From Hyperoplus lanceolatus (taxonomy: Eukaryota; Chordata; Actinopteri; Uranoscopiformes; Ammodytidae), in the NCBI GenBank assembly GCA_026929865.2, contig CM049413.1:11601001-11665000 (forward strand): a stretch of DNA of 64,000 nt. Reading direction: 5' to 3'. Positions 16,901 through 22,900 of the stretch are shown here, one piece after another. Position 1 is the stretch's first letter; each line of letters opens with the position of its first letter. A program made the position numbers and the translations under genes. Under the pieces are notes generated by a model. It was not told the origin of the DNA and did not search any database. It saw only the letters and a list, made by a program, of their open reading frames with translations.

Positions 16901-19900
16901 AATGTCCAAGGTTGTAATTAAACTCCACGGCAAGGAGGTAGCTCTCCCTGCAAAAGCCAAATATGCAGGCGAGCAGGCCTCAGCTAAACAGAGAAGTAGA
17001 AGATCGGCAGACTTTATCAGGAAAGCAGGAAAACAAACAGCCACTACCTCAGCTGGTGGCACCAAGCAGGATAAGCTGATGAACGCTTCCAAGGTCAAAG
17101 AACCCGGCGAGGTGTCGGAGGACCATTCCCAGCCGCTGAGATCTATGAAAGGCATGAGGGGGTTTCGAACTGGCCACACAAGACGCACCTCTCAAACAGA
17201 TGCTCTGCCATTCACCTCGTTTCGAAAACGCCAGAGAAGGAGAACAGCTAAGGGTATGAGTGCCTCTCCTGAGGCCGGAGCTGAGGCCGGTGCAAAGAGT
17301 GGGGAGGAGGCAGCAATGCCCCTCGAGTGTAAGGCTGCAGATTCCTCTATAAAACGAATACGCAGAAAACATTCACGCAAATTTTTGTTTAGTCCCAAGA
17401 AAAAGACTGGACCCGATACCGTTCCAATCATTAAGCATCCAAAAATAGGTCGCAATCGCACAAAGCGTATTTTTTACACCTATGTAGCAGAGCCCCTTCC
17501 AAACACGCCGTTGCCAGGCGGGAATGAGCAGCATCTGCTTGGTCGGACTATCACCCCATCGGAGGAAGAGCCCACCTCGTTTTCTGAACAAGTCCAGCAG
17601 AGTGCAGACAATGCCCCTGTCAAGAGTGGACGGTCTTCCCGTGTTATTAAAACTCCCAAGAGGTTCCTGGATGAGGAAATCATTACCTTTCCAAAGAGGT
17701 CTTTGTCAACATGGCTGAAAGGTCAAAAGACAGCAGTCTTAAAACCAAGTCCATCTTGTCACGAGAAGTCAAGTGACGATGACGACTCGTCTGACACTGA
17801 CTCTGTATCCACACTAGACAGCACATCTGAAGTGAAAACGTTCCCATCAAAGCCCATTGCAGGAAAGAGTCACGTGGAGATCTACAAGAACCTCAAGAAA
17901 CTGACCTTGAAACTGGCGGCGAAAAAGAAGGGCCATTCCCATTCTCAGGGGGAATATACACAGCATGGGGAAGGTTTGGCTCCTAAGGTTAGGAAGAGGC
18001 GCAGGTCAAAGATCATGATGGAGGAGATGAACTCTCCCGGCGTTATAAGGAAACTAGCTGTTGTGGTGAACACTGACGTGGAAGCGGCCTCATGTGTGCC
18101 ATTAGGAGATACAGGCAACAATAGTAAGAATTCTTTCTTGTATTTGTGTAATTATTTATGAAGATCAATCATGCTTCTAGCCATGTGAAGTTTTGTTTGT
18201 TGCATTGTTGTGTTCTGTAATGTCAACAGTTGCTTCTTATACAAGATCCAATAGTGAGATGTTCTTAATATGACTTCACAGTTGAGTTCAGGTAACACAG
18301 AGTTTAAAAAACAATCACTCAGTGCAGTTACATGGGACAGCTAGATTGGATTAAGACATATACCGAACTTGCCACTCGAACGGACTGTGTCACTTGTCTA
18401 AGAAAACATGGCCTTTCAAATATTCGATAAATGGCCGGAGCATTGCCGACTCCACTATGCTAGGTGGCGCTGTAGCCCTTTCAACAAGTGGTTATAGAGC
18501 CAGGTTCAGTTCTTTTCCGGCAACAACACTACTATTTATTACATCGTCTCCGTCCACTTCCTTGTGAAATCCCCGACAGGGAACTCTTGAGCAAGCGCAG
18601 AACGCAAACTCCGATAAATGCGATCCTGTATACATTCAGGTAGAATGCAGACTATGAACTAGTTATCTAGGTGTTCTTATCCGACTTCACTTGTCCGTTA
18701 ATGTGCCGATTTGTGTGCGAGGTAGATCAGCTAAAGGTGTTTACATGCATTTTACAAGTCCTGTTGAGGTCTTATTCGTTTATTTACCCGATTATGAGTC
18801 TGCATGTAACTAGGGCTGGCCCGAATGCCATTTTTCAGGCTTCGAGTATTTGTTGGTATTTCTTTGCGAATATTCGGATATTCGTTCCAGAAAAACACAC
18901 CATCAAACCAACATTAATAATGCCAATGTACTCACTGAAACCGAGTGTGTGAGCCGAGACAGCAAGCTGCGTAGTTTGTTGATGATTTAATAACTTTCGA
19001 ACGGAAGTAAAGTCGGAGTTCCTTACTTTTTCCCCGTGGAACCAAGCAGCTGTTTTTCGTTCCAAATCAGCTGTCCTCTGCGCCATCGTAACCCATACAG
19101 GAGCTTATCAATTCATCCAGGAACGTGCATCTTTTCGGCGCTTTATAAATCCATACAAAGATCCAATATTGATAGTCTTTTGTGTCCATATTATATCCAT
19201 TATTGACTGCCTATTCCCATGATGCAAGCAAGTCACGGTTGATGATGGCTGAATAGCATGGCTGAATGTAAACAAACAGCTGAGCTAAGCTAACGTTAGC
19301 ATTACGTCAAGCAATACATTTCCTTCCGAAATCGCGCTAATGTTGTGGTAGCCTATAGAGCAGGGGTGTCAAACTCATTTTGGTTCGAGGGCCACATACA
19401 GCCTCTCTGATCTCAAGTGGGCCGGACCAGTAAAATAATGGCAAAATAACGTACATATGTCAACTCCAAATCTATAGTTTTATTTTTCAGTAATATGCTT
19501 CATTCATTATCATTCAGCCTACATATGTAACCTACATTATCACGGATCAAAAGGGATCTCTGTACCCCCCAGGAAATGTATTAGTAAAGGTTGCTGCTGG
19601 CCATGGGAATAAGAGGTGCGGCGCGGAGCGCCGCAGCAAAAGTTTTGGGGGTATTTTGCTCAAAGATGCCAATACGCACTAATAATGTAGTATTTGTGTA
19701 TTCCTTGTTTGAATACACAAATACTACAGGCACTTTTGTCCAATTTTGTTTACTATATGTACAGGGACACATTTTGTGCAAACATGCAGACAGTACAAAA
19801 TACACTGTTTTGATTTATTTTTAAATACAATATTGGTTGTTTTGGAATAAGTTTTTCCCAATTTAAAACATAAAAATAAAGCAGCATGGAAAATTAGAAA

Positions 19901-22900
19901 ATAAATCTTGTAGGCCTACACTAGCAAGCTCCTGCTCGTTTCGCGCGTGCAGAGCCACAGACACACCGCGCTGGCTAGTACATTAATTGTTCAGCACTTA
20001 AAAATATATATATTTTTTTTTTATTATTATTTTTTTGGTTTTTACTTTGCCATAAAGCACTGGAGGAAACATTAATAGCGGTGAAGCAAGATTGCCATTT
20101 ACCACGTTGCTAAAATCTGCTTTTTTAAATTTTGGCTGCCCCCTAGCGGCTGGAGTGAGCAGCTCTTCTTAGATGCAAGTTCATCAATTCATGCCTTAAA
20201 ATCCTGAGCTGTGGAACTTTCAGCAGACATTCCTAGCTGTAAGCCACGTAAGTTTCCTAACAGTTGGGAGTGTATGCGACGTGCGGATATGGCACAGATT
20301 CCATTTAAAAAAAAAAAAAAAAAAAATCGTGATTTTTATTTATTTTTTTTTTTTTCCAGAATTGATTCAAATCGGCCGAATTGATTCGCGGGCCAGATCA
20401 AAACGTGTCGCGGGCCACATCTGGCCCGCGGGCCTTGAGTTTGACACATGTGCTATAGAGTCATTAGGAATATGAACACAATCTATTCTTCCTCCATCTC
20501 TCCCTCCCTCCTGCACTTGGTGCCGCTTTTAGTTTGCCTCACTCTGGTAACATCACGTAGCCTACTACAGCTGATATCACCGGTTGCGTTTTGAAAGGGC
20601 ACCGGCCAACTAGGCCAAAGTTCAAATAATTCGATAATATATTTTAAATTAACGTTTAATTTGTATTTCACAATTGTTTTATAACTTGTACATCCAAATA
20701 TTATTTGCTGACAAAATATACTGCAGTTTGAGCTACCTTTGCAAAATAAATGTAAAAAAAAGTTTTTTGGAAAAAAAAAAATATATATATCCCGAATACT
20801 AAATTGAGCTCCGAATACTAATTTAACAAACGAATACTCGGATATTCGAATAATTCGGGCCAGCCCTACATGTAACCGCACTGACTGACTGTGAATAAAT
20901 TGAGACTGTTTAGTTCATAGATGTGTTATCTTAAAATGGCAAGGTGTTTGGTTGCATATAATCAAAGTTACTTTATTCATTCTGTTTGGTTCTGATGCAG
21001 CAGGAAGTATGACTGAGGTGATTGACGTGAGCGGGCCTAGCCATCGAATTGGACTCAGCGGAGCCAATAAGACAATGCTCCACCTGCTGAAGAAAGCCAA
21101 AGTCCAGCTCATCAAGATAGATCAGCAGAAGCAGCTCAAGATGTCACAGGTAAAAATCCAAAAAACAGATTTGTAAGTAACTTAGTTATTTATTTAGGGA
21201 GGTATAGTCCATTTAAAAATGTTTTTCTTCCTTGTCTGGACGAATAGTTGGGATCCAGAGAAACACGAGTGCCAGTGAGTGGACTAAGGAGAAGGAGGAG
21301 AGTTGGCATATCTCTCAAGGATACAGGTCCTCAGGTAAATATTTGAATTTTCTTTTGTCTGGGTTGGAAAAAATCCAATCAGTCTGCTGCAGTTTTTGTG
21401 ATCACCCCCTTTACATCAATCATTTATAATGTGCCTCCAACAGTCAGACTGTGTGTGTGTGTGTGTGTGTGTGTGTGTGTGTGTGTGTGTGTGTGTGTGT
21501 GTGTGTGTGTGTGTGTGTGTGTGTGTGTGTGTGTGTGTGTGTGTGTGTTTCTCTGTAGTTAAACACACAGCACAAGGGTGATGAGCGATAAGTAGCCATC
21601 ATAAGGGAAAATCACATCTTTTTGTATATAAAATAGAAAACGTGCAATATATCATATGGTTAATGAATTTTGAGACTGGACCACACGGAGAGATTTCTAT
21701 ATAGATCACAACTGACGTTACTGCCATTTGTTTTTAACCAAATACTTCATGTGACGTCTCAAAATAACCTTTGATTTGTATGCAGGACCAGCCACTGGGC
21801 GGTCCAAGGATCAAACATGTGTGTCGGGCAGCAGCAGTGGCTTTGGGGCAACCCCGTGCCATGGTGCCAGATGATATTCCCAGACTCAGCGCCCTGCCAC
21901 TTCACGAGAGAGAGGGCATCACCTTTTCCCCCGCAATAGAAGGTGCAGTGCATCTAGATATGTTGTTTTAACCTCTTTGGCTTCACTAAAGACGAGGAGC
22001 ACCTAATTTTGCATCTGTACTGTATATGTGCAAAGATTTTAAGCAAGTCTTAATTACCTGATGTTTTACATCCGAAAAAAGTTAAGCCAAAATGAACATG
22101 TTCCAATTTTCAATTAAAATTATCTTTACAATGTGTGCATATTCCCAAGCCATTGCAGGAATTTCCCCCACAATGTCGACTTTGTAAATAACCTATACAA
22201 TTAACGTTATATGTACATACATTTTTGTTGTTGTGGTAAATTTGCATGTAAACCATTTTAAGTTTGGATTGTAGTTGAGTTGGAAATTCTAATGTGTGTC
22301 CCTTGTCCTTTTGGACCAGCCAAACAAACCAGTTAATCCTGAACAAAGACAGCAAAGTCATGGTTCATGACATCATGGACAAAATAAATTGAAGCTGCTA
22401 ACTCATTTATTTATCATTAATGAGTTCAACTCATTCCTGCTGGTTAGGATCTGGTTGAAATATCCAAAAGATTTAATGGCAATATCGTCCCTACTGATTT
22501 AACATCATATTTTCATACTTTGGCTGTTTGATGTTGAAAAGGATAATACAATTTATGTTGTGTTATAAATGACTTGAAAAGGCTTAAATTCAAGTTGCCG
22601 AACCTTCAGGGGAGTTCAGAAATGTACATCACCACAGAGTGTTGCAGGATATGCAGCATCAATTGTTGCTACTGTGTGGTTGGAGTCACTACCACTGTGG
22701 ACTAGTCAGGATAACCACATCATTCACAGATTGTAAAAACACATAGATGGACTTGATACTGTATTTTATTATCCTTTCAGGTAGGTTAACTGTTTTTCTA
22801 TCCAATTTCTCAAAAATGCTCCATTAGCATTTTCCAGAGTCAAGACCTAAATTAATTTCTGTCAGTTGTTGTTTGGCAAAGCTGCTCGGCTCTTGTATTA

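Follow-up and report, generated by a model that had tools for sequence, protein, structure and literature searches.

We analyzed a window of 64,000 nucleotides from Hyperoplus lanceolatus (GCA_026929865.2, CM049413.1:11601001-11665000; assembly of 807 Mb). The window contains a gene that we assign to the KMT2A/B type based on CXXC, FYRC and SET domain matches, and one intron of this kmt2b-like gene carries three non-autonomous DNA transposons, nested one within another. We predict that the gene is most likely kmt2b. The CXXC piece has KMT2B as its top match (54.4 bits; 49.0 bits for the top KMT2A entry), and the SET piece has KMT2A on top by a small margin (182.2 bits; 177.8 bits for KMT2B). 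The first coding exon, about 14 kb into the window, encodes RFPGRP, taken here as the menin-binding motif in its KMT2B form.

The stack lies between two coding exons on the forward strand, the limits of which were read by eye and are approximate. The second readable coding exon (16684-18123) has an open frame and splice-like ends, and the next (21003-21149) has an open frame ending TCACAG/gtaaaa. An earlier note on this DNA had placed the stack in kmt2b intron 2; this is reasonable given the best CXXC match and the flanking exons, with an intron number that counts exons readable by eye and may miss a small intervening exon.

Other features occur in the window. An open frame at 7846-8064 encodes a sequence resembling the complex I subunit NDUFV1. 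There are long perfect TG repeats at 34040-34244 (102 copies) and 21450-21548 (49 copies). The same kmt2b-like gene contains, at 26334-27829, two inverted arms whose outer ends match (ACAGTCCCCTCCATAAG) and lie beside TATA; each arm encodes part of a sequence (QQDNDPK..SPDLNPIE) that looks like a Tc1-type transposase in its C-terminal half. This region looks like a palindromic Tc1-like element.

Structure of the three layers

The outer element (approximately 18316-20887; all layers are given on the forward strand) is present in two pieces with about 506 bp of its own sequence. Its left part, at 18316-18802, begins with the terminal inverted repeat (TIR) CACTCAGTGCAGTTACATG at 18316-18334, and its right TIR, CATGTAACCGCACTGACTG, at 20869-20887, is split off by the middle element. 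The element was originally proposed to span 18312-20891 with 23-bp inverted repeats (20/23 matching). The element itself stands but these limits do not, because in 25 anchored copies the conservation shared by both ends extends as far as CASTCAGTGC and is bounded by A or T; the repeat is about 19 bp long (17/19 matching), with limits near 18316 and 20887.

The middle element (18811-20868) measures 958 bp without the inner element and one target copy. Its left part (18811-19352) carries the TIR TAGGGCTGGCCCGAAT and its right part (20461-20868) the TIR ATTCGGGCCAGCCCTA, and in the window the two ends are identical over 16 bp (16/16). The target-site duplication (TSD), CATGTAAC, occurs at 18803-18810 and 20869-20876. 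These 8 bp equal the inner end of the right TIR of the outer element, which places the middle element inside that repeat, as had been claimed.

The inner element (19361-20452; 1092 bp) has the TSD CTATAGAG at 19353-19360 and 20453-20460. Both 8-bp duplications in the stack are perfect, as the earlier note described them. The inner ends form a 17-bp TIR with 14/17 positions matching. The right end reads CACATGTG in 20/20 other fetched loci aligned to it (including L009, by its second piece), and therefore the mismatches are a trait of the family; L013 and L021 differ at this end, where their alignments stop short. Exact-pattern searches (four in viral_contigs, one in genome_contigs) and a distant blastn search of phages returned no match.

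All three layers look non-autonomous because no open frame that overlaps the stack exceeds 143 amino acids. A Pfam search of two frames, of 143 and 89 amino acids and both overlapping the middle element, found no hAT match and no transposase; the sole match was to DUF6050, below threshold (18.6 bits, cut-off 27). Rfam returned nothing at gathering scores for 17500-21500.

Chance inverted repeats were considered as the origin of the two hAT layers. Elements 100-5000 bp long that combine inverted ends with an exact 8-bp duplication were sought across the window, excluding low-complexity duplications. At an end match of at least 13/17, the scan found the inner and middle elements only. Dinucleotide-preserving shuffles gave 0 elements at 14/17 (20 shuffles) and 0 at 13/17 (5 shuffles), which rules out chance at 13/17 or better; from 12/17 downward the window differs little from the shuffles. 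The 20/23 score of the outer ends was reached in 0/1000 shuffles and by 11/2000 pairs of 200-base segments drawn at random from the window. Because such pairs score equally high, the outer inverted ends alone are weak evidence, and the outer element is therefore settled by its copies in the genome, not by the end score.

Genomic copies and order of insertion

The earlier note had expected multicopy matches for each layer, and they were found for all three in the same genome. With the whole stack as query, the window and 39 other places match in the inner layer at 92-97% identity (best 40 of 4858 first-look candidates scored). The left part of the middle element gave the window and 39 places at 93-96% identity (best 40 of 1083 candidates), and the left part of the outer element the window and 39 places at 87-90% identity (best 40 of 1275 candidates). 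True copy numbers are higher, since the best 40 alone were scored per query.

Removal of the inner and then the middle element restores two empty sites, and both were found as paralogous copies in the same genome. The site of the inner element is uninterrupted in 28/29 other fetched middle copies, with CTATAGAG itself in 26. The insertion point of the middle element is uninterrupted in 33/40 fetched outer copies, and the other 7 are not aligned across it. At this point the outer copies have CATGTAAA in 25 cases and CATGTAAC in 6, and four contain the full CATGTAACCGCACTG, the window sequence without the middle element.

The divergence of each window copy from its majority consensus, at non-CpG positions, is 0.0467 for the outer (35 other copies), 0.0274 for the middle (15 other copies) and 0.0130 for the inner element (27 other copies). 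This order (4.7 > 2.7 > 1.3%) agrees with that of the nesting, and the absolute values are underestimates that give no dates, because the copies were chosen by best score.

A single composite transposon, with a consensus carrying all three sets of ends and moving as a unit, would also place exactly nested layers at a common locus. The fetched copies refute it: the layers are separately multicopy, and middle and outer copies are contiguous across the insertion sites. Of the 27 inner loci fetched besides the window, each with 500-1500 bases of flank and L009 with more, 0 contain middle sequence. Outer sequence is found in one of them, L009, where it lies next to the inner copy and does not surround it, and in L097 an inner-family copy likewise lies next to a middle copy, outside it. 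The divergences of the layers in the window also differ 3.6-fold. We regard a composite element as having a practically negligible probability. In L009, about 225 bp separate a partial outer copy (2576-2883) from an independent inner copy (3108-4137); in L097, inner-family pieces are at 1-775 and 1242-2050.

The stack thus almost certainly consists of three non-autonomous, MITE-like TIR transposons of three families that inserted successively in the kmt2b-like intron. The order of the three insertions is readable, as had been asserted, and the relative activity of the three families can be ordered, because nesting, both empty sites and divergence agree. First, an outer element of about 506 bp inserted into the intron. 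A 958-bp hAT-type element then entered its right terminal repeat at CATGTAAC by an 8-bp staggered cut, and a younger 1092-bp hAT with Buster-type target choice finally entered the middle element at CTATAGAG. Given a longest frame of 143 amino acids in the stack, movement was presumably of the cut-and-paste kind, with transposases acting in trans. The outer copy is probably no longer mobile, with its right terminal repeat now split.

The stack is a case of ordinary nested transposons, and nesting with a readable order is routine. TinT is reportedly a method that takes the chronology of nested repeats, and the order of insertion, from nesting. REANNOTATE is described in the same terms (PMC2672092). 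The order here comes likewise from nesting, for one case that was checked by hand and includes empty sites. A literature search not aimed at the species returned no description of this locus. The stack illustrates transposon stratigraphy cleanly and leaves views on element function unchanged. The only points for specialists are the undetected duplication of the outer element and a double hit of one site in the middle element.

Flanks of the outer family

Both ends were anchored in 25 of the 40 fetched outer copies; 9 were unanchored and 6 were not aligned to both ends. No target duplication was detected around 25-26 anchored copies. For exact direct repeats of lengths 2-6 and 8, 100 permuted pairings give a range that includes the best counts, and z-scores of mean identity at lengths 1-10 (26 copies) stay below 2.8 over many offsets. 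Beyond the conserved ends, the only flank column that stands out is position -5, where 23/25 and 24/25 copies have A or T.

A 3-bp duplication of ACT or CWG was rejected: the highest counts (8/25 copies at the ACT offset, and 6/26) stay below the permuted maximum of 10. We compared the outer element with the PHIS transposons, among which Spy inserts within AAATTT without a TSD and NuwaI has CWG targets (PMC4482050). The outer element resembles Spy in its apparent lack of a TSD, with ambiguous anchoring, but AAATTT was not seen at its flanks (25 copies). It resembles NuwaI in having CAG/CTG beside its ends, but the triplets outside T/CAGTGC and CACTG/A are equal in few copies (4/25 and 5/26), so that the CWG duplication of NuwaI was not found. 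A teleost survey (PMC9179366) states that Spy is known only from invertebrates.

Because no repeat stands out, the outer element may integrate without a target duplication, or its variable CAST-like ends may hide a very short one. The direct repeats within the permuted range favor this reading, and the two hAT layers, by contrast, show clear duplications. It is weakened by ambiguous anchoring, since both ends carry variable CAGT/CACT/CTGT, by the 15 copies that were unanchored or not aligned to both ends, and by the want of a paralogous empty site among the fetched loci, where several flanks match other loci and none spans the junction. We give it a little less than even weight.

Target sites of the two hAT layers

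The assignment of the two inner layers to hAT, made in the earlier note, is supported by TIRs, 8-bp TSDs and target preference rather than by a transposase. The inner layer was fetched at 28 loci, counting the window itself. Full-length alignments were obtained for 17 of these, and the other 11, with an end outside the alignment, do not enter the count. A perfect 8-bp TSD occurs in 17/17, with TA at positions 4-5 in 17/17 and an overall form like CTNTAGAG; the TSD of one copy (L002) is identical to CTATAGAG of the window. The Buster-type target is nnnTAnnn (TcBuster, PMC3499496; Drosophila Mar MITEs, PMC3517528). The inner element has the same 8-bp TSD and target, a CAGGGGT-type end as in Mar (PMC3517528) and no coding capacity that we could see. 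Its two ends differ at positions 3-5, and by target and ends alone it fits a Buster-type hAT.

For the middle element, full-length alignment was obtained at 14/29 of the other loci fetched. Their TSDs match at 8/8 in eight copies, 7/8 in two, and 6/8, 6/8, 5/8 and 1/8 in the rest. The ten copies at 7/8 or better, which include two that share adjoining bases (L087 and L088), have A at position 7 in 10/10 and T at position 2 in 7/10. This roughly suggests the Ac-type target nTnnnnAn, as in Hermes (PMC10512250) and hobo (PMC3276498), with which the middle element also shares the 8-bp TSD and a short TIR. The TSD of the window copy, CATGTAAC, has A at position 2 and departs from the T common in the family and in the Ac type.

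One middle copy (L098) contains, at about 2040-3160, a different hAT-like element of 1107 bp with ends TAGGGCCCGACCGATAT and TSD CTGTAGAG, at exactly the same 8-bp site as the inner element of the window. The two nested insertions may thus reflect favored hAT targets and not chance alone. A hot spot is plausible for the inner element because CTATAGAG agrees with the observed preference of its family (TA at positions 4-5), yet the shared site is a single coincidence among 29 other middle copies. In addition, 0/27 other fetched inner loci lie within a middle element, and 0/33 outer copies aligned across the site of the middle element are interrupted there. We consider favored targets possible but rather unlikely. 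A broader proposal, that the outer element represents a vertebrate TIR family integrating without a TSD and that the middle element has a built-in preferred hAT target hit twice by different hAT-like families, appears improbable.

Two other middle copies carry different inserts: in L083, approximately 869 bp at around position 613-620 of the element, and in L086, 1043 bp near 574. The copies L087 and L088 are 47 kb apart on C12 and have the same TSD and adjoining bases; they are probably a segmental duplication.
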